A stretch of 64,000 nt of DNA from NCBI RefSeq assembly GCF_000337215.1, contig NZ_AOHZ01000014.1, positions 1 through 64,000 on the forward strand, in the 5' to 3' direction. The DNA is from Natronolimnohabitans innermongolicus JCM 12255. Lineage in GTDB: Archaea; Halobacteriota; Halobacteria; Halobacteriales; Natrialbaceae. The notes below the pieces were generated by a model. The model was not told the origin of the DNA, searched no databases, and saw nothing but the letters and a program-made list of their open reading frames with translations. The position numbers and the translations under genes were made by a program. Shown piece after piece: positions 8,314-54,514 of the stretch (positions are counted from its first letter, which is position 1; every line of letters starts with the position of its first letter).

Positions 8314-9855
8314 CTATCTCGACGCGACGTCGTCCGAATCGACCCCCTCGCGGAACGCAGCCTGCGCGTCCCAGACCGGCTCCAGGCCCTCCCGGGCCGC
8401 CGCGTACGTCTCGTACAGATCGTCGTAGGTCGCCGACGCGTCGGTCGCGGGCTGGTATCGCGTGTGAACTGCCGTCATCGCCTCGGCCGCGCGCTCGAGG
8501 TCCGAAAACTCGCCGTTCCCGACCGCAGCGAGCATCGCCGCTCCGTTCGCGCCGGGTTCGTCGTCGGCCGTCACGACGATCTCCGTTCCGACGCAGTCGG
8601 CAACGAGCTGGCGGAAAAACGTCGATCGCGCGCCGCCGCCGCCGAGCGCGAGCCGTTCGGGTTCGACGGGCAGGTGTTCGACGCAATCTCGCAGCGCGAG
8701 CGCGAGCCCCTCGTAGGTCGCTCGAACGAGGTGCGCCCGCCCGTGGGCCGGCGATAGACCGACGAATCCGGCACGCGCGTTCGGATCGGTAAACGGACCC
8801 CGCTCGCCGGTTTCGCTGAGGTAGGGGAGATACAACAGCCCCTCGCTCCCGGCGGGAACCGCCCGCGCCCGCTCCTCGAGCGCGTCGAAGGAGGCACCGT
8901 CGGCGAGTTCGGATCGCACCCACTCGAGGCTCCGGGTCCCCGCGTTCGACCCGATCGCGGTCGTCCAGCGGCCGTCGAGACCGAGCGCCATGCCGATGCT
9001 CGTCTCGCTCTCGCCGGGGCGGTCGCCGATGACCTGCGTGAAGATCGAGGTTCCGATCGAGGCGGCGCCGTCACCCGGCCGTACCGCCCCGTTTCCGATC
9101 GCCGACGCGACGACGTCGATCGCACCGGTCACGACCGGCGTTCCGACCGGAAGGCCGGTGTGCTCGGCCGCCGCAGCCGTCACGCGGCCGACGACGTCCG
9201 TCGGCTTCCGAACCGGCGGGAGAAGCGACCGGAAATCCGCAAGCCCGGCGCGCTCGAAGACGGCCGGCTCGACGGATTCCGTCTCCCGATTCAGAAACGG
9301 GACCGTCGCCTCCGTGTAGTCGGTCCCGCGGTCGCCCGTCAACCGAAACGCGAGCCAGTCCGTACACGAAAACGCCGTCGTCGCCGCCTCGAGGCTCTCC
9401 GGCTCTTCGTCGGCGAGCCACCGCAACACCGGCAGTCCCATGCCGGGATACGGGCGCGAGCCGCAGGTTTCGACGAGCGCCTCGAGCGTGCCGTCGGCCG
9501 CCCACTCCTCGAGGACGCCGGCCGCGCGGCTGTCAGACCAGAGCACGGCGTTTCGAACCGGCTCTCCGTCGACGTCGACGAGCCAGCAGCCGTCGCCCTG
9601 TCCCGTGAGGCCGACGGCCTCGATCGCCGGTGCGGATTCGCCCCCGGAGCCGCGGGCTTCGAGGTCGTCGGTCACCGAGCGAATCGCTTCCGCGACGGTC
9701 GACCAGACCGCCGCCATGTCCTGTTCGGCGCGACCCGACGCCGGATTCAGTACCGATTGTGGTTCCGATGCCATCGCCACCCGGCGACCGGCGAGATCGT
9801 ACGCGACGGCCTTCACGTTCCTCGTCCCCGCGTCGACACCCAGATAGACGCTCAT
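8314..9855 (-). CDS. FGGY-family carbohydrate kinase
   Basis: 513 residues of the FGGY kinase superfamily, which phosphorylates pentoses, gluconate or glycerol. The N-terminal phosphate-binding hairpin YLGVDAGTRNVKAVAYDL is at residues 4-21, GLTGQGDGCWLVD near residue 88 and WSDSRAAG near 109. The nucleotide-side motif ALGGGGARSTFFRQL is in the C-terminal half. Overall layout resembles L-xylulose/xylulose kinases, but the substrate is not readable and no catabolic neighbours are present. The start at 9855 is supported by an AT-rich box 28 nt upstream. Confidence 0.87.
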   Translation of the reverse strand: MSVYLGVDAGTRNVKAVAYDLAGRRVAMASEPQSVLNPASGRAEQDMAAVWSTVAEAIRSVTDDLEARGSGGESAPAIEAVGLTGQGDGCWLVDVDGEPVRNAVLWSDSRAAGVLEEWAADGTLEALVETCGSRPYPGMGLPVLRWLADEEPESLEAATTAFSCTDWLAFRLTGDRGTDYTEATVPFLNRETESVEPAVFERAGLADFRSLLPPVRKPTDVVGRVTAAAAEHTGLPVGTPVVTGAIDVVASAIGNGAVRPGDGAASIGTSIFTQVIGDRPGESETSIGMALGLDGRWTTAIGSNAGTRSLEWVRSELADGASFDALEERARAVPAGSEGLLYLPYLSETGERGPFTDPNARAGFVGLSPAHGRAHLVRATYEGLALALRDCVEHLPVEPERLALGGGGARSTFFRQLVADCVGTEIVVTADDEPGANGAAMLAAVGNGEFSDLERAAEAMTAVHTRYQPATDASATYDDLYETYAAAREGLEPVWDAQAAFREGVDSDDVASR

Positions 9856-9878
9856 CGGTCGATAAACTGAAATGCGCG

Positions 9879-9887
9879 ATAATAAAT
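9879..9887 (-). promoter_or_regulatory. TATA-like box of the FGGY kinase gene
   Basis: On the minus strand the box reads ATTTATTAT, centred about 28 nt before the ATG at 9855. In haloarchaea the TATA box lies about 26-28 nt before the transcription start, so this fits a leaderless mRNA and the chosen start. Confidence 0.55.
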
Positions 9888-10048
9888 TCCGGTTATCGAC
9901 GCTGATGCACGCTCGAGGAGCGAGCGATAGCCGTTCGTCGGCGCTCGCGCGACGAATCCGGAGGGTCGATAGGGCACAGCGGTCTCCCTCGAGGAGACGC
10001 GATCGAAACGCCGCTCGCTCGCCACACTCCCACCGACGGTGGATCACT

Positions 10049-10267
10049 TCACTGGAGTCGCGCGTCCGTTATCCGCAATCGGCCACGCGTCCCCTCCCAC
10101 TCCCGTTCGTACTCGAGGTCGATCCGCCGAGCCATGTGCGGACCGTCCACCACGAACGTCTCGGAACCACCGTTTTTCCGCTCGGGTAGCTCGCGTCGCT
10201 CGCTACCGCTCGCGCAAGAATCTGGTCCAAAAACGGCCGCTCGCGGCGCGTCGCACCGCGCTCGCAC
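10049..10267 (-). pseudogene. Duplicated 3' fragment of the diphthine-ammonia ligase gene
   Basis: The last ~37 residues of this 72-codon frame (ETFVVDGPHMARRIDLEYE and on to RLRITDARL) nearly repeat the C-terminus of the ligase directly upstream on the same strand. The remaining ~35 N-terminal codons are Arg/Ser-rich and look like non-coding DNA. The nucleotide match covers about 10060-10164 against 10294-10398, an offset of 234 bp. It lacks the ATP-binding half, so it is best read as a partial tandem duplication and non-functional, unless it is translated as read-through tail. Confidence 0.75.
10060..10164. repeat. Direct repeat, copy A (ligase 3' end)
   Basis: About 105 bp closely matching 10294-10398, including the shared core gtactcgaggtcgatccgcc and the end gaccgtccaccacgaacgtc. 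Differences are scattered single bases. The copies are 234 bp apart in the same orientation. Confidence 0.85.
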
Positions 10268-11008
10268 TCACTCGCGGTTCGACGACGCTAATCGCGCGTC
10301 AGTGATCCGCAACCGCCCGCGCGTTCCCTCCCACTCCGACTCGTACTCGAGGTCGATCCGCCGATCCATGTGCGGACCGTCCACCACGAACGTCTCGAAC
10401 TCGCCGCCCTCGCCGAGGATGTGGACGCCGTACTCCTCGTTGAGCTCCTCGAGTTCGTCGAGCGCCTGTCGATCGAGCGTCCGGCCGAGCCAGGACTCGT
10501 CGAGTCCGTGGGCGGCGACCTGAATGATCGTCGTCTCGAAGCCGGCCTCGAGCATCGCGTCGGCGAGGTCGCGGGGCTCTTTCTGCCAGAGCGGGGCGAA
10601 CAGCTCACAGCCGAGTCGGTCGCACAACCCCTGGATCCGGCTCGTCTGGTACTCGCTCTCGACGGCGCCGGCGGTGACGCCGGCGATACCGCCCTCGAGG
10701 TCGTCGTCGAGTTCGATCAGGGCCGCCTCGAGGGGTTCGAGTTCGTCGTCGCCCTGCGCGCTCGAATCGGTCGCGTCCGCGGCGCCGAAATCGTCGGGTT
10801 CGACGTCGATCAGCGGAATGTTCATGCTCTGTGCGGCCAGCGACGCGAGCTCGGTCGCGGGGACGTGATACATGTACGAGTCGCCGGTCGGATGCACCGT
10901 GACGAGGTGAGAAACGTCGAGCCCCTCTTCGAGGGCTCGGTAGACGGCCCACGAAGAGTCCTTGCCGCCCGAAAAGAGACCGACCCACGCACCCTCTGCA
11001 TCGCTCAT
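10268..11008 (-). CDS. dph6: Diphthine-ammonia ligase (adenine-nucleotide alpha-hydrolase fold)
   Basis: 246 residues. The N-terminal PP-loop ATP-binding motif LFSGGKDSS is at residues 11-19, followed by the family landmarks AGAVESEYQTSRI, LCDRLGCELFAPLW and GEGGEFETFVVDGP. The enzyme adenylates diphthine on elongation factor 2 and amidates it to diphthamide, the last step of that modification. The ATG at 11008 starts MSDAEGAWVGLFSGG; longer frames add an unlikely leader. Its 3' end has a short non-family tail (ASSNRE) next to a duplicated fragment of itself. Confidence 0.88.
   Translation of the reverse strand: MSDAEGAWVGLFSGGKDSSWAVYRALEEGLDVSHLVTVHPTGDSYMYHVPATELASLAAQSMNIPLIDVEPDDFGAADATDSSAQGDDELEPLEAALIELDDDLEGGIAGVTAGAVESEYQTSRIQGLCDRLGCELFAPLWQKEPRDLADAMLEAGFETTIIQVAAHGLDESWLGRTLDRQALDELEELNEEYGVHILGEGGEFETFVVDGPHMDRRIDLEYESEWEGTRGRLRITDARLASSNRE
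10294..10398. repeat. Direct repeat, copy B (inside the ligase gene)
   Basis: The parental copy, lying in the 3' coding end of the diphthine-ammonia ligase gene. The ligase reading frame continues about 9 codons past the conserved TDARL before its stop at 10268, so the coding tail after the repeat may derive from the duplication event. Confidence 0.85.
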
Positions 11009-42812: not shown

Positions 42813-45047
42813 TCAGTGAAGCCGCGAGCGGGGATCGAGTACCTCGACCGGATGGGCCGCGTCACGGTCGAGTACGTCCTCGAGTTGGTCCTCACACGAG
42901 GTGCCGCTGGCGACGACCAGGCGGTTCTGTGCTTCGGGGGCGGTGAACTGCTCGGCGAGTCGGTCGCCGACGTCCATGCTCAACTCGTAGTACTCCTGTT
43001 TGTAGCCAAAGGAGCCGGCCATTCCACAGCACTCGACGTCGCTCTCGACGACGTCGTAGTCGAGGGTCTCGAAGACGGCTCGAGTGTAGCGGTCGACGCC
43101 GAGCGTGCGCTGTTGACAGTGGGAGTGGTAGGCAACGTCCGGCCCGCCGTCGCCGGTTCGCAGTCGTGCCCCGTTGGCCCCGTTCTCGAGACAACCGTAG
43201 ACGTACTCGAGGATCTCGTAGCTGCCATCCCGGAGTCGCTCGAACGAGGTCTCGGGAAGGAACTTCTCGTACTCGCTGTGGAACATCGCCAGATCGCTCG
43301 GTTCGATGACGACGACGTCGCGGCCGGCATCGAGGTGTTCAGCGAGCCCGGCGTAGACGCGACTCGCCTTCGTGTCGGCGGTCGCGATCATCCCCTGTGA
43401 GAGCGGCGCCCGGCCGCTTTCCCCGACCGCCGGAACCCGAACGTGGACGTCCATGGCCTCGAGGACGCGGACGGCCGCTTTTCCGCGGTCGACGTCGATG
43501 TAGTTCGTGTAGGTGTCGGGGTAGAGGACGGCCTCGCGCTCGGCGTCGGCGGCGGAGACGCGGGGGCCACGCGACTCGAACCAGTCGACGAGCGTCTCGC
43601 GTTCGAACGCGGGCAGCGAGCGGCGGCGATCGATCCCGACGGTCCGTTCCAGAACCGACCTGACGGGCCCGAGATCGGCCAGCCAGTTCGAGACGGGTGC
43701 TGTCGCACTCCCAAGTTTCGCCAGCGTCTCGTAGTTGCCAAACAGTCGCTTCTGGGGGTCGATGCTCCCGGTATCTTCCTCGTCGGGGACCAGTTCGTCG
43801 TAGACGAACTCGAAGCGGCCGTCGTCGCCCTCACGGTTGATCCGATCCCTGACGACGGTATTGATCCACGGGATGTCGATCTCGACCGGACAGGCCTCGA
43901 CACAGCGCGAGCAGCCAGTACAGAGGTCGTTGAACGCGGCGGCACTCTCCTGGCCGTGGACGCCGGCTTCCCAGCCGGTCGCGATCCCGCCGGTGTAGGT
44001 CTCACCACCGAAGGCGTGGCCGCCGACGGACTGGAAGTTTCCACAGGTGTTTGCACACGCCGAACACCGGATACAGTACAGCGTCTCCCGAAGGTGGTCG
44101 TCCTCGCGCATCGCCATGCGGCCGTTGTCGATCAACACGAGGTGGAACTCGCGGTCGTCGTCACGGTCGGCGAGCGCCACGTCGGATTCGTCGAAATCCA
44201 CGACGGGGGAGTCGACCGGCGGCGTCAACAGGGAGACGTACGAGGTGATGTCCTGACCCGTCCCCGAGCGACCGATCAGCTCGATAAAGGGCGCGAGGTC
44301 CTCGACGGATGGAACGATCTTCTCGACGCCCGCAACCGCGACGTGGGTGTCGGGAACGACGGCCGTCTTCCGGGCGTTGCCCTCGCTCGTTACGAGCATG
44401 AGCGACCCCGAGTCGGCCGTGATGACGTTTGCACCGGTCATCCCGATATCGGCGTCGACGATCAGCTCTCCCAGCCGGTCCCGGGCGAACGTCGTCAACT
44501 CCTCGGCGGTCTCGAGCGGTTCGTCGGGCTCGAACTGCTCGTTGAACAGCCGGGCGATCTCGTCTTCGGACTTGTGAATCGCCGGGGCGACGAGGTGTGA
44601 CGGCGCTTCGTCGGCGACCTGCAGGACCCACTCACCGAGGTCGGTTTCGACGACGTCGACGCCGTCGGCCTCGAGGGCCTCGTTGACCTCGAGTTCCTCG
44701 CTGGTCATCGACTTCGATTTGACGAGTCGCTCGGCATCGTTCTCGTCTGCGATCTCGCGGATGTACCGGTTGGCGTCGGCCGCGTCGTCGGCGAGATACA
44801 CCGTCCCGCCGTTGGCCTCGACGGTCTCGGTGAGTTCGTCGATCAGCTCCGGTAGTCGCTCGATGGCGTCTTCTTTGATCGCGCGGGCCTCGCTTTTCAA
44901 CGCCTCGTAGTCCTCGAGGTCGGCGACCGACTCGTAGCGGCCCTCGTTGAACCCGAGCGTGTTCGCCTCGATGGCGTCACCTTCCGTCTCGAGGAGATAC
45001 CGGATGTGGTCGGACTTTCGCTCGCGTGTGCCACCGCTCGTATTCAT
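42813..45047 (-). CDS. LutB-LutA fusion: LUD domain, two [4Fe-4S] sites and CCG domain
   Basis: 744 residues. An N-terminal LUD domain (about 60-300; GMTGANVITADSGSLMLVTS) is followed by ferredoxin motifs C325-x2-C328-x2-C331-x3-C335 and C376-x2-C379-x2-C382-x3-C386. The C-terminal part has a CCG-type cysteine domain (HSHCQQR and VECCGMAGSFGYKQEYY). This joins what are separate LutB and LutA subunits in bacteria, which with LutC oxidise L-lactate to pyruvate. The C-terminal half is clearly paralogous to that of the dehydrogenase at 51434. It overlaps the LutC gene by 4 bp. Confidence 0.9.
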   Translation of the reverse strand: MNTSGGTRERKSDHIRYLLETEGDAIEANTLGFNEGRYESVADLEDYEALKSEARAIKEDAIERLPELIDELTETVEANGGTVYLADDAADANRYIREIADENDAERLVKSKSMTSEELEVNEALEADGVDVVETDLGEWVLQVADEAPSHLVAPAIHKSEDEIARLFNEQFEPDEPLETAEELTTFARDRLGELIVDADIGMTGANVITADSGSLMLVTSEGNARKTAVVPDTHVAVAGVEKIVPSVEDLAPFIELIGRSGTGQDITSYVSLLTPPVDSPVVDFDESDVALADRDDDREFHLVLIDNGRMAMREDDHLRETLYCIRCSACANTCGNFQSVGGHAFGGETYTGGIATGWEAGVHGQESAAAFNDLCTGCSRCVEACPVEIDIPWINTVVRDRINREGDDGRFEFVYDELVPDEEDTGSIDPQKRLFGNYETLAKLGSATAPVSNWLADLGPVRSVLERTVGIDRRRSLPAFERETLVDWFESRGPRVSAADAEREAVLYPDTYTNYIDVDRGKAAVRVLEAMDVHVRVPAVGESGRAPLSQGMIATADTKASRVYAGLAEHLDAGRDVVVIEPSDLAMFHSEYEKFLPETSFERLRDGSYEILEYVYGCLENGANGARLRTGDGGPDVAYHSHCQQRTLGVDRYTRAVFETLDYDVVESDVECCGMAGSFGYKQEYYELSMDVGDRLAEQFTAPEAQNRLVVASGTSCEDQLEDVLDRDAAHPVEVLDPRSRLH

Positions 45048-45568
45048 TCGTCATCACCGCCGGTCTCGAGGAGGACGACGTGAACGGCGTTCGGGCCGTG
45101 GGCTCCCTCGACCAGCGCGCCCATGTCTGCGGTTGCACTGGGGCCGGTCGCGACGATGGCGCTGCCACCGTCTCGCAGTTCCGGACCGAGCCGCTCGATG
45201 GCCGTCGGCATGTCGGCCACGAGGTCGCGCTCGTGGAGCACCGGGACGTGCAGTTCCGGAAAGAGACTGACCGGTTCGCTTCCCTCGGACGTCGAGGGCA
45301 AGACGACGCTCCCGTAGTCGGCGATCCCAAACGAGGCAGCCGTAACGCTCGTCATCGCCGCCTCGAGTGTCGCCGGCGTCGGTTCGTCGTCGACCCACTC
45401 GGGGAGCGAGACGTCCTCGAACGGAAGAGGTGTTCCGACGACTGGTTCGGTTACGACTTCCTGTAGCGTCGACTCGAACGCGGCCGGGGTGGTTCGGGTC
45501 AGTGCAACGTCGAGGTCGGCCAGTGCCTCCTCGAATCGGTTGCGGATCGACCCTGACTCGGCGCTCAT
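45044..45568 (-). CDS. lutC: LutC-like LUD domain protein
   Basis: 174 residues of the LUD fold: TAASFGIADYGSVVLPST, then LHVPVLHERDLVADMPTAI and SAIVATGPSATADMGALVEG with AHGPNAVHVVLLE at the end. It is the third Lut subunit and overlaps the LutBA fusion gene (ATGA). An ATG at 45598 would add ten residues; I chose the one that begins MSAESGSIRNRF. With the permease and the FAD/Fe-S dehydrogenase nearby it supports lactate oxidation as the purpose of the block. Confidence 0.88.
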   Translation of the reverse strand: MSAESGSIRNRFEEALADLDVALTRTTPAAFESTLQEVVTEPVVGTPLPFEDVSLPEWVDDEPTPATLEAAMTSVTAASFGIADYGSVVLPSTSEGSEPVSLFPELHVPVLHERDLVADMPTAIERLGPELRDGGSAIVATGPSATADMGALVEGAHGPNAVHVVLLETGGDDE

Positions 45569-45649
45569 ATCTCGTGCGTTCGGTCCCACCATCATCACTG
45601 TTCTGCTCCACGGGGCCGTCCTCTCCGGTATTTTCGATGGTAAATCATG

Positions 45650-46150
45650 TTATCGACCGCGACGAAACCGACGGATGCTCTCGACTGGATCGAACCCGAT
45701 CCCCGACCGAATTTCGGCCGGAAGCGTTGACGTCGCTGGAAACGACGCGAGCCCGTCGGCAAACGCCTCTAGATCGATCGGTACGTGGATCCGATAGCCG
45801 TAGGGCGGTCCGTCCGTAACGTGGACGGCGATCTTCTCGCGGGCGACTGACCGGCCGTCGTAACAGACGATCCGGTCGATCTCGTCGTAGGGGACGACGA
45901 TCGTCCGGTCGGCCGACTCACGAACGCCCCCGAGTCCCTGCTCGCGGTACGTCCGGGCCAGCCTGGTGGCTTCTCTCCTTGGCGTACCGGTCAACAGGCC
46001 GACGACCGGCGTGATCGTTCCGTACTCGGCGACGAGCAGGTAATCCGTGGTGAAATACAGGTCTGCAAGTCGGAGCGGGACCGTTCCGGTCATCCCGAAG
46101 TGGACGTGGACGCCGACGCTCGGCTCGGCCCCGGGACGGTCGTCGCTCAC
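45650..46150 (-). CDS. Unknown protein in the lactate locus (small PH-like fold possible)
   Basis: 166 residues, no membrane segment. It has a run of beta-strand-like stretches (LADLYFTTDYLLVAEYG, RTIVVPYDEIDRIVCYDG, KIAVHVTDGPPYGYRIHVP) that resembles a PH-like domain, with a basic helix-like middle (RREATRLARTYREQG). I do not recognise a family. It is preceded by a 4-bp overlap with the 159-residue membrane protein gene and followed by lutC, so it is probably part of the operon. Confidence 0.72.
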   Translation of the reverse strand: MSDDRPGAEPSVGVHVHFGMTGTVPLRLADLYFTTDYLLVAEYGTITPVVGLLTGTPRREATRLARTYREQGLGGVRESADRTIVVPYDEIDRIVCYDGRSVAREKIAVHVTDGPPYGYRIHVPIDLEAFADGLASFPATSTLPAEIRSGIGFDPVESIRRFRRGR

Positions 46151-46626
46151 CGACGGCCTCCGTCATCACGGCCGTCCGACGCTCGATCCTCGAGTGGGGT
46201 GGCCGAACGTGGCTCGAGGTCGTCCGCCGGTCTATTTTCGAACGCCCAGTTCAGGAGCAACACCGCACCGACAACGAACGGAACGCCGACGACGAGACGG
46301 CCGGTAAACGCGAAGAAGCCACCGACGGCGATCCCACCGAGTCCGAGCGCGATCGCGCCCCGTTGTCCGGTCGTGTACTCGCGGGCCACGCGTCCGGCAG
46401 CATCGTCGTCCGCGCCACGGTCGTCTCGGACCGCGCGCTCGGCAACGTACGTACACGCCATCACCGTGAGAACGAGGACGACGACCACCGTTTCGACCGG
46501 CTCGGAGACGGGTACACCCACCGCGTCGGGTCCAGTTCGAGTCGCGACGATGACAGCCAGTCCGCCGAGGTAGATCGCCATACGCCGTGTAGCGAGCCAC
46601 TGTAGTCTCTCGAGTACGGACGCCAT
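46147..46626 (-). CDS. Four-helix membrane protein of unknown function
   Basis: 159 residues with hydrophobic segments at about 16-30, 40-59, 95-113 and 113-130 (for example PVETVVVVLVLTVMACTYVA), and polar ends. A GTG one codon upstream (46629) is an alternative start. It overlaps the PH-like gene by 4 bp and lies 40 bp after the Nramp-like gene. No family recognised. The three-gene cluster Nramp-like, membrane protein and PH-like protein may be a transport unit. Confidence 0.72.
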   Translation of the reverse strand: MASVLERLQWLATRRMAIYLGGLAVIVATRTGPDAVGVPVSEPVETVVVVLVLTVMACTYVAERAVRDDRGADDDAAGRVAREYTTGQRGAIALGLGGIAVGGFFAFTGRLVVGVPFVVGAVLLLNWAFENRPADDLEPRSATPLEDRASDGRDDGGRR

Positions 46627-46665
46627 CACTGACCACTCGCCACCGGGGGCGGATAACTCCCGCGA

Positions 46666-48402
46666 TCAGTCCGGTCGCTCCCCGTCGTCGACGACCGCCG
46701 AGGGATCGCGTCGGTAGGTCGCGACCGCGCTCTTCCAGATCACGTACGCCTGGACCCCGAGAAAGACCAGCCAGAGGAGATAACCGCCGGGCGCACTGCC
46801 GACCACGCCGATCTCCGTTCGGAACGCCGTGAGGCCGAAATCGTGCTCGAGGGTCAGTCCCAGCAGGAGGACGCTGAGATAGCCAAAGAAGCTAGATGCC
46901 CACCACATGGCGACGACCCGTATCCAGCCCGGCGAGACGTGATCGGGGAGCCGCAGGCTGTTGATCAGCAAGATCAGGGCCGTGTACGGCCACATCATCA
47001 GCCCGGACATCGCAGCGCCAACGACGAGCAGTCCGAACGGGTTCTCGACCGGAATCGGCAACGCGAGGATCGCGATCCCCCACAGCACGAAAACAGTGAG
47101 CAGCCCCCAGAAGATTCGCGAGAGGTTCCAGCCGGCCTCCCGGCCGTAGGCCTCGTAGATGACGTCGGCGCTGTTACGGACGAACGATTCGATGATCGCA
47201 TACTGTGTCGTAAAGAGGGCGACGAAGAGGACGAGATAGACGAGCACGCCGCCGAGCACGCTCAACTGGGGGACAATCTCGTAGAGCCACATGCTCACCG
47301 CGTCGCGGTCGGTGCCCGCAGCGTACTGTGCTGCGATCGCCATCATCGCGGTCGAGACCGCAAGGAGCCCGACGACGAACGTCAGGAAATGCTCGAGTCG
47401 TGCGACCCGCCACCAGGCCGTCCACCGCTTTCGGTTCCGCTCCGTCGGTCGTGGGAAAAAGCCGTCACGCTGGACCGGTTCTGGCTCGTCGCCGATGAGA
47501 GGGTTTTTGACCCGCCCCTGGTATTTCCCCATTCCGTATCCCTTCTCGCGCACCCAGAGACTCTGTGAGAGGTTGAGATAGCCCCCAGCCCCGGCGAACG
47601 CGACCCCGCCGAGGAACGCGGCGATCTCGGTTTCGGGTGGAAGGCTTCCGAAGCTCACTGCACCGCCGGGAACCGACCCGAGTTCGGGGAATGCGCCGGC
47701 TACGAGAAAGAGGACGAGCGCGAGGACGGACGTCAACGCGACGAGAGCGAGCTGTATCCGTTCGACGATGTTGTACATGAGCGGCGTCAGCTGGTAGGTG
47801 AGCCAGACGACGATCATCAGGACGATCCCGAACGCCCGCCAGCCGGGGAGTTCGTATCTGCCGACGGTGAGGTCGTATCCGCCGATCCCGATACCGCTTG
47901 CGCCGACCTCGGCAGCACTCGCCGCCCACCCCGGCCAGCCGAGGCTGACGAGACCAAGCCCCAGGAACACGAGCGGCCAGACGGGGTGGACGCGATCGAA
48001 TGCGCGAAAGACGCTCTCGCCGGTGAGCAACGTCCAGCGCTGAATCTCCGTGTTGATCACGAACTGCGTGAGGACGCCGATCCAGAACGCCCAGTACAGC
48101 GCCCAGCCGTACTGAGCGATCAGACCGGGCCAGAACAGCGTCTCCCCGCTCCCGAGCGAGGCACCGAGCATGATCGCACTCGGCCCGACGAGGTGTCCGA
48201 CTCTCGGCACCTTCGGGAGATCGAGCAGGCGAAAGCGTCCGCCGGTCCCTCGCTCCGGCGCGGTCTCGTCTTCGGGCGCGACCTCGAGGTTGTCGTAGGC
48301 GACGGGGACGTACGTCGAGGCGCGGTACCCCGTGGCGTCCTCGTCGTCGACGTAGACGTCGTCGTCATCGGCGTCGGCGGTCCGGGCCGATCGGTCAGTC
48401 AC
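46666..48402 (-). CDS. Divergent Nramp-like transporter
   Basis: 578 residues with about 11 transmembrane helices. The start of the membrane part, VGHLVGPSAIMLGASLGSGE, fits the first Nramp helix, but the metal-binding DPGN motif of that helix is replaced by LGSGE, and I see no MPH motif in the sixth helix. Flanking text such as FVINTEIQRWTLLTGES and LSQSLWVREKGYGMG is typical of a haloarchaeal subgroup annotated as Nramp. It may not move divalent metals; neighbours suggest a role linked to lactate or another carboxylate. The N-terminal ~55 residues are acidic and cytosolic. Confidence 0.83.
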   Translation of the reverse strand: MTDRSARTADADDDDVYVDDEDATGYRASTYVPVAYDNLEVAPEDETAPERGTGGRFRLLDLPKVPRVGHLVGPSAIMLGASLGSGETLFWPGLIAQYGWALYWAFWIGVLTQFVINTEIQRWTLLTGESVFRAFDRVHPVWPLVFLGLGLVSLGWPGWAASAAEVGASGIGIGGYDLTVGRYELPGWRAFGIVLMIVVWLTYQLTPLMYNIVERIQLALVALTSVLALVLFLVAGAFPELGSVPGGAVSFGSLPPETEIAAFLGGVAFAGAGGYLNLSQSLWVREKGYGMGKYQGRVKNPLIGDEPEPVQRDGFFPRPTERNRKRWTAWWRVARLEHFLTFVVGLLAVSTAMMAIAAQYAAGTDRDAVSMWLYEIVPQLSVLGGVLVYLVLFVALFTTQYAIIESFVRNSADVIYEAYGREAGWNLSRIFWGLLTVFVLWGIAILALPIPVENPFGLLVVGAAMSGLMMWPYTALILLINSLRLPDHVSPGWIRVVAMWWASSFFGYLSVLLLGLTLEHDFGLTAFRTEIGVVGSAPGGYLLWLVFLGVQAYVIWKSAVATYRRDPSAVVDDGERPD

Positions 48403-48600: not shown

Positions 48601-49164
48601 TTAGCCGCCGAGGTAGTGCCAGATGTGGCCCCGTTCCTGGGGTGGATCGACGCCGGGAAGTTCTCGCAGCGCGGGCTGGATCGCGTTCCACCATCCTTCT
48701 GCCGTCTCGAACCCGGCCGGGTATTGGGGAAACACGTCCTGCAGGAAGTCCGACTTCTTCGCACTGGGATTCTCCGTGAGATATTCGTAGGAGGCATGCA
48801 GTGCCTCTCGGCGGTCCTCGAGAGTCTCACCGGTACCCGGTAACTCCACCTCGTTCATCGCAGACCGTACGGCCGTCGGAACGGAGTCGTCCCGACCGGA
48901 TGGTTCGTGAGTGGGCGTCTCGAGTGGTTTCCACCAGACACGTCCTCGAGCGCCGACTTTGCGCGTCTCGAGAACCCCGTCTTCGACGAGTTCGTTCAGT
49001 TTGTTGTGGGCCGTCCGACGCGAGCAGTCGAGCGCCTCCATCACGTCACCGGCGGTCAGCGGTCGTGCACGGTCCGTCCGCGATTCGAACACTTCGAGGG
49101 CGTCGCTCGCGGGAATCCGGTCGACGTACTGGCCGTTCTCGTTTCGTTCCCGATCGCGCGCCAT
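48601..49164 (-). CDS. Helix-turn-helix transcriptional regulator of the lactate locus
   Basis: 187 residues. The winged-helix part is TAGDVMEALDCSRRTAHNKL with NELVEDGVLETRKVGARGRVWW. The C-terminal half is a helical region with ASYEYLTENPSAKKSDFLQD and GWWNAIQPALRELPGVDPP, ending in IWHYLGG. Position between the divergent lactate operons and next to a 20-bp palindrome suggests local control. I used the ATG at 49164. A 200-bp gap to the Nramp-like gene holds nothing else I can see. Confidence 0.8.
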   Translation of the reverse strand: MARDRERNENGQYVDRIPASDALEVFESRTDRARPLTAGDVMEALDCSRRTAHNKLNELVEDGVLETRKVGARGRVWWKPLETPTHEPSGRDDSVPTAVRSAMNEVELPGTGETLEDRREALHASYEYLTENPSAKKSDFLQDVFPQYPAGFETAEGWWNAIQPALRELPGVDPPQERGHIWHYLGG

Positions 49165-49240
49165 ACTCGAGACACCTCGTCGGGGACCGCATAAACCTTT
49201 ACACACAACTGTGGCGACTGATTCAGACAACTGAATTGGC

Positions 49241-49260
49241 CGATACACACGTATGTATCG
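49241..49260. promoter_or_regulatory. 20-bp near-perfect palindrome, candidate operator
   Basis: cgatacacacgtatgtatcg matches its own reverse complement at 18 of 20 positions. It lies 77 bp upstream of the regulator gene start and about 300 bp before the permease start, in the divergent control region. A typical dimeric HTH operator. Confidence 0.55.
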
Positions 49261-49558: not shown

Positions 49559-51373
49559 ATGAAACGAAGCGTGGTATCGCAACACTCTGGACGAATGCCG
49601 GTGATGGCGGTGCTTAGCAGTGCAGTGCTGGCGCTTTTACCGCTCGTCGTCGTCGCCGTTCTGTTGGTCGGATTTCTGTGGCCGGCCGAGCGAGCGATGC
49701 CGGTCGCGTGGCTCGTCGCGGCGGTCGTCGGCTTTGCGATCTGGGACATGCCAGTCGAGTGGATCGCCGCCGCGAGTATCCGTGGCGGACTGGCCGCACT
49801 CGAGATCCTCTGGATCGTCTTCGGTGCGCTCGTGTTGTTGTACACGCTGATGCGCTCCGGAGCGGTCGATACGATCAACGATGCGTTTGCCTCGATCAGT
49901 GAGGATCGACGCGTCCAGGTCGTGTTGCTCGGGTTCTTTCTCGCGACCTTCATCGAGGGCGTCGCCGGCTTCGGGACGCCCGCAGCCGTCGTCGCACCGC
50001 TGTTGCTCGCACTCGGCTTCCCGGCGCTTGCCGCAGTCGTCGCGGCACTCGTCGGTCACGCCGTCGCGACGGTGTTCGGAGCGGTCGGAACGCCGATCAT
50101 CGTCGGCTACGAGCAACCGCTCGGGAGCGTCGAGCCGACGATAGCCACCGAAGGGATGTCGGTCGCGAGCTATTCGGCCTCGGCGGCCGGCTGGGCTGCC
50201 GTGTTCAACGGTATCCTCGGCGTGTTGATGCCGCTTTTCGCCGTCGGAATGGTCGTCTACTTCTTCGGCGACCCAGACGAGCGGTCGCTGGCCCCGCTTC
50301 GAGGTGTGGTTCCGCTCTGTCTGGTCTCCGGCGTCTCGTTTGCCGTCCCGTACGCACTGACGGCGTGGTTCATCGGTCCCGAGCTTCCGTCGCTGCTCGC
50401 CGCGATGGTCGGTGGCGCCGTCGTCGTCGGCCTGCTCAGGGCCGGCTACCTCGAGCCCGACGACACCTGGGAGTTCCCACCCCGCGACGAGTGGCCCGAC
50501 CACTGGGTCGGGACCATCGAACCGGGCGGTGATGGGACGGGCGCTGCGACCGGTAGCGAGCACTCGATGTCGTTGCTGCGTGCGTGGTCGCCGTACCTGA
50601 TCCTCGTCGTGTTGCTGATCGGTACCCGGGTTATCGAAGCGGTCGCCGAGCGACTAGAGGGAGATCCCGTCGTGTCGATCGAAACCGGCCTCGGTACCTT
50701 CTCGATCGGTCCGGTCCTCGAGTGGTCAGCGATTCTCGGGACCGAACTGGGCGGCGCGATCAGCTGGGCGTACGTCCCCGGCACCTGGCTCGTGGTCAGC
50801 GCGCTGATCGCCGTTCCGCTGTTTCGGATGGACGCCGACGAGGTCGTCGGCGCATGGCGTGACGCCGGCAGCAAAATCGTCTCGCCGCTGATCGCGCTCG
50901 TGTTCGTCATCGCGATGGTCGAGATCATGCTCGAGACCGACGCCCACGTCGAAGCTGACGTCGTGGCGGCCGCCTCGGTCCCTGACGGGAGCATGATCGT
51001 CGTGCTCGCGGAAGCGACCGCGACGGTGATCGGGCCCGCATACCCGATGATCGCCCCGGCTGTCGGCGCGCTCGGTGCCTTCATCGCCGGTTCGATTACG
51101 GTCAGTAACATTACCTTCAGCGCGTTCCAGTTCGAAGTCGCCCAGACACTCGACATGCCGACGCAGATCCTGGTCGGTGCCCAGTCTATCGGTGGCGCGA
51201 TCGGGAACGTCATCGCGATCCACAACGTGATCGCCGCACTCGCGACGGTCGGCCTCGTTGGGAAGACCGGACGCGTCGTCCGGCTCAATCTTATCCCTGT
51301 CGCGTACTATCTGCTCGTGGGCGGTATTCTAACGACAATCGCCGTCTACGTGCTGTTTCCGACGATCTTCTAA
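49559..51373 (+). CDS. lctP: L-lactate permease family protein
   Basis: 604 residues with about 13 transmembrane helices. The LctP core begins [20 protein letters not shown] (EGxxGFGTP is characteristic) and continues through [15 protein letters not shown] and [20 protein letters not shown], with the ending AIHNVIAA...[11 protein letters not shown]. The family takes up lactate or glycolate with protons or sodium. ATGs at 49595 and 49604 give a shorter N-terminus more like the family. It leads directly into the FAD/Fe-S dehydrogenase gene 60 bp downstream. Confidence 0.92.
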
Positions 51374-51433: not shown

Positions 51434-54400
51434 ATGACGATCACACCACCCACCGAACGTGACCCAGCCAACGATCCGAACGCCAACTACGATTACCGAA
51501 GCGACGACGTCGAACGACCCGACCTCGTCGCCGACCTCGAGCGGCGAGTCGAAGGTGACGTTCGCTTCGACTCCTACTCCCGACAGCTGTACGCGACCGA
51601 CGCGAGTATCTACGAGGTGACGCCGATCGGCGTCGTCTTCCCGCGATCGACCGCCGACGTCGCTCGCGTCGTCTCCTACTGTGCTGACAACGAGATTCCC
51701 GTCCTCCCGCGGGGCGGCGGCACCAGCCTCGCCGGCCAGACGGTCAACGAGGCCGTCGTTCTCGATTTCACGACGTACATGGACGACGTCGTAGAGATCG
51801 ACCCCGACGAGCGACTGGCGACCACCCAGCCGGGGATCTACCTCGAGTCGCTCAACGAGGAACTCGAGCCCCACGACCTGAAGTTCGCACCTGACCCGGC
51901 GTGGGGCGACAAGAGCGCGCTCGGCGGCGCGATCGGGAACAACTCGACGGGCGCACACTCCCTGCAGTACGGCAAGACCGACGCCTACGTCGAGGAGGTC
52001 GAGGTCGTCCTCGCGGACGGCACTGTCACGACCTTCGGCGAGGTCACCATCGAAGAGGTTCCGGAACTCGCCGACGGTGACGACCTCGAGTCGGCGATCT
52101 ACGCGGCAGTCGCCCGAATTCTCGAGGAGGAGGGCGAACTCATCGATGACGCCTATCCCGACCTGAAGCGAAACGTCTCCGGATACAATCTCGACTGGCT
52201 CGTCGAGGACGCCTATGGCGGCGAACGCGGTGTCGGCGAACCCGACGCCGAGGGTGGGACGATCAACCTCGCGAAACTCCTCTGTGGCAGCGAGGGAACC
52301 CTCGCGGTCGTCACCGAGGCGACCGTCTCGCTCGAGCCGATTCCCGAGGAAAAGAGCATGGCGTTGCTCGCCTACGACACGGTACTCGAGGCGATGGACG
52401 ACGTCGAGCCGATCGTCGAACACGACCCGGCCGCAGTCGAAGTGCTCGACGACGTAATGATCGACCTCGCGCGGAACACACCCGAGTTCGCACCCGTGAC
52501 AGAGATCCTTCCCGACGGAACGGCCGCGGTCTTGATCGTCGAGTTCTACGCCGACGACGTCGCCGACGGCAAACGGAAGGTCGCAAATCTGCTCGCGGAT
52601 CGCTGTCCGAGCGTCGATCCGGACGGCGAAGCCGACGACGAAGACGAGCGGACGATCACGGAGACGGAGACGCTGGCGTTCGACGCCGTCGAGGCCTACG
52701 ACGCCGACAGTCGCACGAAGATCTGGAAACTGCGTAAATCCGGCCTCCCGATCCTGCTCTCGCGGACGACCGACGAGAAACACGTCGCCTTCATCGAGGA
52801 CACCGGTATCCCGCCGGAGAACCTCCGAGCGTTCGTCGCCGACTTCCAGGAGGTCCTCGAGGACCACGACACCTACGCCAGCTTCTACGCCCACGCCGGG
52901 CCGGGCGTCTTACACATCCGGCCGCTGGTGAACACGAAGACCGACACGGGACTCGAGGAGATGGAATCGATCACCGACGCCGTCACCGACCTCGTCGTCG
53001 AATACGACGGCTCCGTCTCGGGCGAACACGGCGACGGACGGGCCCGCACCCAGTGGAACCGGAAACTGTACGGCGAGGAGGTCTGGGAGATCTTCCAGGA
53101 GCTGAAGACGGCGTTCGACCCCGACTGGCTGCTCAACCCTGGCCAGGTCGTCTTCCGCGACGACGACCCGACCGACATGACCGAAAACCACCGCTTCGGC
53201 CCCGACTACGAGTTCGACGCCGGCTTCGAACCGGTCCTGGAGTGGGACAACGACCAGGGCTTTCAGGGAATGACCGAACTCTGTCACGGCTGTGGCGGCT
53301 GTCGTGGCGAACAGTCCACGACCGGCGGCGTGATGTGTCCGACCTTCCGGGCCGAAGACGAGGAGATCCTCTCGACACGTGGTCGGGCGAACATGCTCCG
53401 GCAGGCGATGAGCGGCGACCTCGATCCCGACGAACAGTTCGACGACGAGTTCGTCGAAGAGGTACTCGACCTCTGTATCGGCTGTAAGGGCTGTAAACAC
53501 GACTGTCCGAGCGGGGTCGACATGGCCAAGCTCAAAGCCGAACTTACCTACGAACACCACAAGCGAAACGGCGTCTCGCTTCGCGATCGGTTCTTTACGA
53601 ACTTCGAGACGATCGCGAAGGTCGGTTCCGCGACTGCCCCAGTCTCGAACTGGGTGGCGAAGCTGCCCGGCAGCGGCGTCCTCACCGAGAAAGTACTCGG
53701 CATCTCCCGGGAGCGGGACCTCCCGACGTTCGAGCGCAACACGTTCGCGAAACGCGTCGCGGACCGTCGACCCGCGGTGGCGGCCCACGAGGCCGATCAC
53801 AAGGTCGTCCTCGTGCCCGACATCTATACCAACCACGAGTATCCCGAGGCCGGCGACGCAGCCCTCGAGGTGCTCGAGGCCGCCGGTGTCCACGTCGAGG
53901 TCGCCGACCCGCGAGACGTGGGCCGCCCGGCCTACTCGAAAGGGCTGCTCGATCAGGCCGCCGAGGACGCGACGGAAACCGTCCACGAACTCCTGCCGTA
54001 CGTCGAGGAGGGCTACGACGTGGTGTTGATCGAGCCCTCCGACGCCGTCATGGTGCAGTCGGACTACCTCGATCTGTTCGATCACCCGGAGGTCGAGGCA
54101 GTTGCCTCGAGCACCTACGGTGTCTGTGAGTATCTCGATCAGTTCGATCTCGACGCCGAGATCGCCTTCGATGCCCCCGACGAGCACCTCGCCTACCACG
54201 GCCACTGCCACCAGAAGGCCCACGCGAAAGACCACCACGCCGTCGGCGTGCTCCGGCGTGCGGGCTATGCGGTCGATCCCCTCGACTCGACGTGCTGTGG
54301 GATGGCCGGCTCCTTCGGCTACGAGGTCGAACACTACTCGATGAGCAAGGCGATCGGCGAGGTCCTCTACGAACAGGTCGACGACAGCGCGGCCGAGCGC

Positions 54401-54514
54401 GTCGTCGCCCCCGGCGCATCCTGTCGCACTCAACTCGAGGACCGTCCCGGCGCGACCGAGGAACCCCCGACACCGATCGAGGTCGTCGCCGAGGCACTCG
54501 CCGAGCGACGATAG
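51434..54514 (+). CDS. D-lactate dehydrogenase-like FAD-binding and Fe-S oxidase
   Basis: 1026 residues. The FAD-binding PP-loop domain (VLPRGGGTSLAGQTVNE near residue 95) and FAD-oxidase C domain lead to a GlcF-like part with ferredoxin cysteines C617-x2-C620-x2-C623 and C681-x2-C684-x2-C687-x3-C691, then CCG motifs (HCHQKA and TCCGMAGSFGY). Such fusions of GlcD and GlcF oxidise D-lactate or 2-hydroxyglutarate, passing electrons to quinone or cytochrome. Placement after LctP supports lactate. Its last ~430 residues are similar to those of the LutBA fusion, including SATAPVSNW. Confidence 0.92.
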   Translation: MTITPPTERDPANDPNANYDYRSDDVERPDLVADLERRVEGDVRFDSYSRQLYATDASIYEVTPIGVVFPRSTADVARVVSYCADNEIPVLPRGGGTSLAGQTVNEAVVLDFTTYMDDVVEIDPDERLATTQPGIYLESLNEELEPHDLKFAPDPAWGDKSALGGAIGNNSTGAHSLQYGKTDAYVEEVEVVLADGTVTTFGEVTIEEVPELADGDDLESAIYAAVARILEEEGELIDDAYPDLKRNVSGYNLDWLVEDAYGGERGVGEPDAEGGTINLAKLLCGSEGTLAVVTEATVSLEPIPEEKSMALLAYDTVLEAMDDVEPIVEHDPAAVEVLDDVMIDLARNTPEFAPVTEILPDGTAAVLIVEFYADDVADGKRKVANLLADRCPSVDPDGEADDEDERTITETETLAFDAVEAYDADSRTKIWKLRKSGLPILLSRTTDEKHVAFIEDTGIPPENLRAFVADFQEVLEDHDTYASFYAHAGPGVLHIRPLVNTKTDTGLEEMESITDAVTDLVVEYDGSVSGEHGDGRARTQWNRKLYGEEVWEIFQELKTAFDPDWLLNPGQVVFRDDDPTDMTENHRFGPDYEFDAGFEPVLEWDNDQGFQGMTELCHGCGGCRGEQSTTGGVMCPTFRAEDEEILSTRGRANMLRQAMSGDLDPDEQFDDEFVEEVLDLCIGCKGCKHDCPSGVDMAKLKAELTYEHHKRNGVSLRDRFFTNFETIAKVGSATAPVSNWVAKLPGSGVLTEKVLGISRERDLPTFERNTFAKRVADRRPAVAAHEADHKVVLVPDIYTNHEYPEAGDAALEVLEAAGVHVEVADPRDVGRPAYSKGLLDQAAEDATETVHELLPYVEEGYDVVLIEPSDAVMVQSDYLDLFDHPEVEAVASSTYGVCEYLDQFDLDAEIAFDAPDEHLAYHGHCHQKAHAKDHHAVGVLRRAGYAVDPLDSTCCGMAGSFGYEVEHYSMSKAIGEVLYEQVDDSAAERVVAPGASCRTQLEDRPGATEEPPTPIEVVAEALAERR

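Follow-up and report, generated by a model that had tools for sequence, protein, structure and literature searches.

The gene at 46666-48402 of the stretch of Natronolimnohabitans innermongolicus JCM 12255 DNA analysed here (64,000 nucleotides, hereafter the window) probably encodes an Nramp-fold secondary carrier that supplies the adjacent dehydrogenases by taking up a 2-hydroxy-carboxylate, either lactate itself or a closely related compound (e.g., glycolate or a short sugar acid), a reading to which we give a probability of roughly 0.58. An organic acid seems a more likely substrate than a metal because the metal-binding residues are gone and the company of lactate-type genes is near-constant, and we infer a carboxylate as the best supported reading. 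The locus is made up of the following features:

42813-45047, minus strand: lutB-like fused LUD/Fer4/CCG protein (744 aa), whose closest NCBIfam model is LdhH, matched below the LdhH cut-off
45044-45598, minus strand: lutC-like LUD protein, from an open frame and a domain match
45650-46150, minus strand: PHL, a small soluble protein (166 aa), tentatively PH-like
46147-46629, minus strand: MEM, a small membrane protein (160 aa) with at most four hydrophobic segments and no Pfam family
46666-48402, minus strand: the transporter (578 aa), predicted Nramp/SLC11 fold, GSGE in TM1
47581-47598, minus strand: glycine-rich TM6 segment of the transporter (F269-AGAGG-274), near the place of MPH in Nramps
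48142-48153, minus strand: TM1 motif of the transporter (G84-S85-G86-E87), replacing DPGN
48601-49248, minus strand: HTHreg, a winged-helix regulator upstream of the transporter
49559-51373, plus strand: lctP-like lactate permease (PF02652, 324.7 bits)
51434-54514, plus strand: glcD-like FAD oxidase fused to Fe-S domains, of the D-2-hydroxyacid dehydrogenase type

The minus strand thus carries, in this order, the winged-helix gene, the transporter, MEM, PHL, lutC and the fused lutB-like gene, and the lctP-like permease and glcD-like dehydrogenase genes are divergent from the minus-strand transporter and lut genes. Gaps are short (36 nt between the transporter and MEM, 51 nt between PHL and lutC), and both MEM/PHL and lutC/lutB overlap by 4 nt; the open frames agree here with an earlier note on this DNA, which had described three genes at 45650-48402, the last two overlapping and lutC coming next. 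HTHreg, whose C-terminal part has no clear family, is likely a local regulator, and no convincing repeat that might serve as a regulator site was found between HTHreg and lctP.

The transporter matches the NCBIfam model NF037982 (Nramp_1), named "Nramp family divalent metal transporter", with 246.6 bits (cut-off 50). It has no match to PF01566 in Pfam (E up to 1), being absent among the four matches to that family genome-wide, and homology to LctP was ruled out, as there is no match to PF02652. A structural model built from a 39-sequence alignment (pLDDT 77.5) finds its best match in human NRAMP1 (9f6q, Z 33.4, 430 residues, rmsd 3.9), the other Z scores being 30.8 for DraNramp (8e60), 30.1 for a model of YcsG (9a52) and 28.9 for EleNRMT, with Asc1 (26.5) and AdiC (26.1) below the latter. 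Judging from this model, the transporter has the Nramp/SLC11 (LeuT-type) fold. No direct sequence relatives are found in the PDB; the only PDB matches of the family profile, seven entries of the MthK potassium channel (E 0.14-0.24), were treated as chance.

The strings DPGN and MPH occur nowhere in the transporter sequence, as the earlier note had remarked in doubting the metal-transport annotation, a doubt that our results support. In alignments, GSGE (residues 84-87) takes the place of DPGN in TM1 and glycines replace the Met and His of metal Nramps in TM6, which reads FAGAGG (269-274) and was aligned at residue level by sequence only. The GSGE of a Rubrobacter relative aligns position by position with the DPGN of human NRAMP2, and the window transporter aligns with that relative; a comparison of the transporter family with Escherichia coli MntH alone (hhalign) was not significant (probability 0.2%), so that the DPGN/GSGE correspondence rests on this two-step alignment together with the shared fold. 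Ten residues (S85, G86, E87, A270, G271, G273, N277, Q280, R285, and K287) are identical in all 39 aligned members, and residue 84 varies between G, A, and S. Three further proteins of the same genome clearly match the Nramp family (L001, L002, and L003); where DPGN would stand they read VGPGT, AGPAT, and FGAGS, and since these too are devoid of DPGN, a canonical metal Nramp was not found in this genome.

We detected the transporter in 40 of the 242 genomes searched, at 45 places; the 44 that lie outside the window were all retrieved. At least one of lctP, glcD, lutB, and lutC lies within about 9 kb at 42 of these 44 loci, versus 0 of 20 control regions taken at arbitrary positions in genomes of the same set, although the genomes are related and the haloarchaeal counts are therefore not independent tests, and the glcD and lutB counts overlap because the domains are shared. 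Two loci (L036 and L038) have none of the four genes. Over the 45 loci including that of the window, the neighbours comprise an HTH gene at 36, lctP at 31, PHL at 29, and MEM at 13, in varying arrangements: lutC-lutB immediately after the transporter (at 13 loci), a facing glcD-lctP pair, or glcD upstream on the same strand. A larA probe had no match in the 44 loci. LctP occurs in 34 of the 40 transporter genomes versus 94 of the 202 others. Among those with the transporter and no LctP, five (G063, G157, G184, G223, and G233) have a transporter-MEM-PHL locus along with a glcD-type gene, located directly upstream of the transporter in the four LctP-free loci with parsed gene order. The sixth, G139, carries a fragment: at L078 (G139:C1:452100-472000), a transporter fragment with a stop codon lies beside an HTH gene and lutBC, and is apparently a decaying copy. 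Relatives of the transporter are also found on archaeal plasmids (Haloarcula, Halobellus, and Halomicrococcus); the laboratory strain Haloarcula hispanica carries both a transporter and a PHL gene on its plasmid pHH400 (HAH_RS18625 and HAH_RS18630). Gene transfer in haloarchaea is suggested in published work by the tree of the L-lactate permease (PMC3102087).

The lactate-gene company that the earlier note attributed to all three genes therefore holds for the transporter, but not for a constant transporter-MEM-PHL unit, which is ruled out by the presence of PHL in only 30 and of MEM in only 14 of the 40 transporter genomes and by the 13 loci in which lutC follows the transporter directly. PHL is found in 30 of the 242 genomes, all of them with the transporter (0/202 without), and adjoins it in 29; in the exception (G238), a MEM-PHL pair (L172, about 9585-10480) lies ~395 kb from the transporter and ~4 kb from a glcD paralogue. 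MEM is found in 16 genomes of which 14 have the transporter, and is always accompanied by PHL where it occurs in transporter loci (13/45). The regular separation of trio members, which the earlier note had named as refuting its reading, is thus seen for MEM and in part for PHL. In G236 (L174, 9302-9862), MEM lies directly behind glcD with lutBC divergent upstream, and the transporter and PHL are missing, although both stand at that place in G157, a member of the same genus group; in G222 the match to MEM is marginal. This distribution makes PHL look like a partner that is dedicated to the transporter yet dispensable, and MEM like a second, rarer one. Hydrophobic segments above threshold number two to four in 11 of 12 MEM members and one in the twelfth, and there are none in any of 14 PHL members. 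Pfam searches gave nothing beyond chance level for the MEM members, no match for the PHL of the window, and none above chance in the 14 PHL members, and a single-sequence model of PHL was unusable (pLDDT 34). Yet the PHL profile scored 21.4 against six bPH_2 domains from the same genome, whereas none of 100 column shuffles exceeded 16.6 (hhalign probability 6%). This likeness, which concerns the C-terminal half of a protein that also has a conserved HxH, weakly suggests that PHL is PH-like, as had been proposed.

Bacterial relatives were found as well, including some in plasmid records (32-34% identity). One relative in Rubrobacter indicoceani lies beside lutABC, a DUF1537-type kinase gene, pdxA, and a lactate-racemase-domain gene, and a second one beside a uxaA-family gene; in Aureimonas, isocitrate lyase is encoded one gene before the relative, and in Streptomyces jeddahensis the relative is followed by genes for a sugar-acid-type dehydratase, an FAA hydrolase, and an FAD oxidase. 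A scan of genome contigs yielded at least 534 relatives, and in a wider set made up of the 80 of these loci that are closest to the Rubrobacter query, core acid genes are present at only 4 loci (7 when sugar-acid dehydratases are counted), and the link to acid genes is thus not general in bacteria; the operon neighbours of these 80 loci are mixed, with no dominant family when pooled.

Actinomycetota formed a separate sample of 198 genomes with 46 listed places, 42 of which were examined and divided by TM1 motif into 19 GE-type and 23 DPGN-type loci. Genes of the lut, larA, pdxA, DUF1537, or uxaA kind accompany 10 of the 19 GSGE-type versus 0 of the 23 DPGN-type loci (P = 6e-5); two of the ten positives (L084 and L097) were picked beforehand and the gene list was derived from L084, and without both the link stands at 8 of 17 GE-type loci (P = 3e-4). 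Of the nine GE-type negatives, five belong to a GLGE group that is divergent, and contig ends truncate some loci. In that group (L187, L188, L189, L191, and L192), the Nramp_1 proteins are preceded by genes coding for about 400 residues. Large hydroxyacid and sugar-acid clusters with larA, pdxA, the DUF1537 kinase gene, and lutABC surround the Nramp_1 gene in Rubrobacter-like genomes (L178, L179, L182, L097, and L084). The acid-gene positives cluster in such genomes, yet the tree requires six label changes to account for them. Among the fetched Actinomycetota places, Nramp_1 scores above 390 bits belong to GSGE- or GLGE-type proteins and scores of 200-320 bits to DPGN-type ones, except for L213; the name of NF037982 is thus wider than the metal motif. 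In a tree of 95 proteins, made by a quick method with NRMT proteins left out and showing some long branches of unsure placement, the DPGN Nramps form one clade (support 100), the haloarchaeal members another (support 100), and all GSGE proteins lie across the root from DPGN.

Uptake of a lactate-type acid would serve the adjoining flavin and iron-sulphur dehydrogenases of the glcD and LutB/LutC types. Amino-acid carriers from the APC superfamily use a GSG motif in TM1 to hold the carboxyl group of the substrate. The GSG string is present in the transporter, with S85-G86 identical in 39/39 members, and by analogy drawn from sequence its small turn in TM1 would clamp the carboxyl group of the acid, the glycine-rich TM6 would make room for it, and the invariant E87 would act in coupling or binding. 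PHL would act in the cytosol as an optional subunit with a regulatory or stabilising role, MEM would be its likewise optional counterpart in the membrane, and the neighbouring HTH protein would regulate the unit. The carboxylate reading is favoured by the linkage in haloarchaea, in several arrangements, and in Actinomycetota, by the glcD-type gene at the locus in the five LctP-free genomes, by the gene company in Streptomyces jeddahensis, by the loss of the metal residues, by the split in the tree, by the invariance of SGE, and by the precedent of PxpT discussed below. It is disfavoured by the scarcity of acid genes in the wider bacterial set, by L036 and L038, by the metal transport reported for YcsG and EleNRMT, and by the fact that many partner enzymes are metalloenzymes; moreover, as most transporter genomes possess LctP, there is no evident need for another carrier of lactate.

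The partner enzymes could also point to a divalent-metal importer with a non-canonical site, supplying iron, nickel, or magnesium to the adjacent hydroxyacid enzymes (Fe-S LutB, nickel-dependent LarA, dehydratases), which we consider unlikely. The predicted Nramp fold and the NCBIfam name agree with it, LarA is described as requiring a nickel cofactor, and because EleNRMT is reported to transport Mg without the canonical motif (PMC12873925) and YcsG to be a manganese importer whose overproduction raised cellular Mn (PMC10448178), a metal substrate is conceivable even without DPGN. However, only the acidic E87 is left at the DPGN place, TM6 has neither Met nor His, and none of the DPGN Nramps from the same sample of genomes lies by acid genes (0/23). 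Nickel for LarA cannot explain the haloarchaeal loci, given the null result of the larA probe, and the identified recurrent haloarchaeal neighbours included none that we recognised as serving metal homeostasis.

The transporter might instead carry another organic solute (an amino acid, a 5-oxoproline-like acid, or a sugar acid), the lactate link then reflecting one multi-acid catabolic island. The bacterial relatives, which stand by sugar-acid genes (pdxA, DUF1537, uxaA, and dehydratases) at least as often as by lut, the frequent coexistence with LctP, and the reported requirement of PxpT for 5-oxoproline use (PMC13274462) would fit such a carrier, but in haloarchaea the catabolic partners that recur widely belong to lactate and glycolate use, and we regard it as rather improbable. 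That the protein is a transport-dead Nramp fold which reports lactate jointly with PHL, MEM, and the HTH protein next to it is very improbable: the regulator gene adjoining most loci, the confinement of PHL to transporter genomes, and the frequent presence of LctP would suit a sensor, but the conservation in TM1 and TM6 is what one would expect of an active site, and the loci of the glcD-transporter operon (L068-L070 and L072-L077) have no HTH match.

Extending the carboxylate reading, we tentatively propose, with less assurance than for the window transporter itself, that the GSGE branch of the Nramp superfamily, whose members are named divalent-metal transporters, carries 2-hydroxy and sugar acids by means of a TM1 with an amino-acid-carrier-like GSG turn for the carboxylate, and that haloarchaea gained the dedicated partners PHL and MEM, forming a carrier complex for which we found no description. 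If true, the automatic name "divalent metal transporter" would be wrong for many genes, and this would be a second Nramp branch linked to an acid pathway, a different one, in two domains of life. With the DPGN relatives as an internal control, the question of metal or organic acid is directly testable.

The earlier note had suggested a carboxylate transporter or accessory complex not yet described. As to the haloarchaeal unit, our literature search, which did not extend to most subscription journals, listed no description of it and no paper that connects Nramp relatives with lactate or with operons of this kind in haloarchaea. Compared to the canonical Nramp/SLC11 proteins (MntH and DMT1, Mn/Fe proton symporters), the transporter shares the predicted fold and the NF037982 match, but differs in GSGE instead of DPGN, a TM6 without the Met/His motif, the lack of PF01566, its gene company, and its separate clade. 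It resembles the Nramp-related groups without DPGN and MPH (NRMT and the "G-motif" groups), described as diverse and, apart from the NRMT-like and MntG-bearing ones, entirely uncharacterized (PMC12873925); we found no mention there of acid-gene linkage as seen here. The Mg transporter NRMT is placed among Slc11 outgroups (PMC9606685, PMC4072509, PMC10606218). With LctP (PF02652), itself a frequent neighbour, the transporter would share the proposed substrate, and it differs in having no PF02652 match. A published precedent for an NRAMP-family protein encoded with organic-acid catabolic genes is PxpT/YcsG, and to this extent such a carrier has been described: PxpT of Corynebacterium glutamicum has its best TCDB matches in the NRAMP family, and its deletion is reported to abolish growth on 5-oxoproline (PMC13274462). 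YcsG of Bacillus subtilis was renamed MntG as a manganese importer (PMC10448178), and the two reports disagree on whether YcsG serves manganese or 5-oxoproline. The transporter of the window differs from both in its adjacent enzymes and its proposed acid, and shares 11% identity with YcsG over the aligned part.
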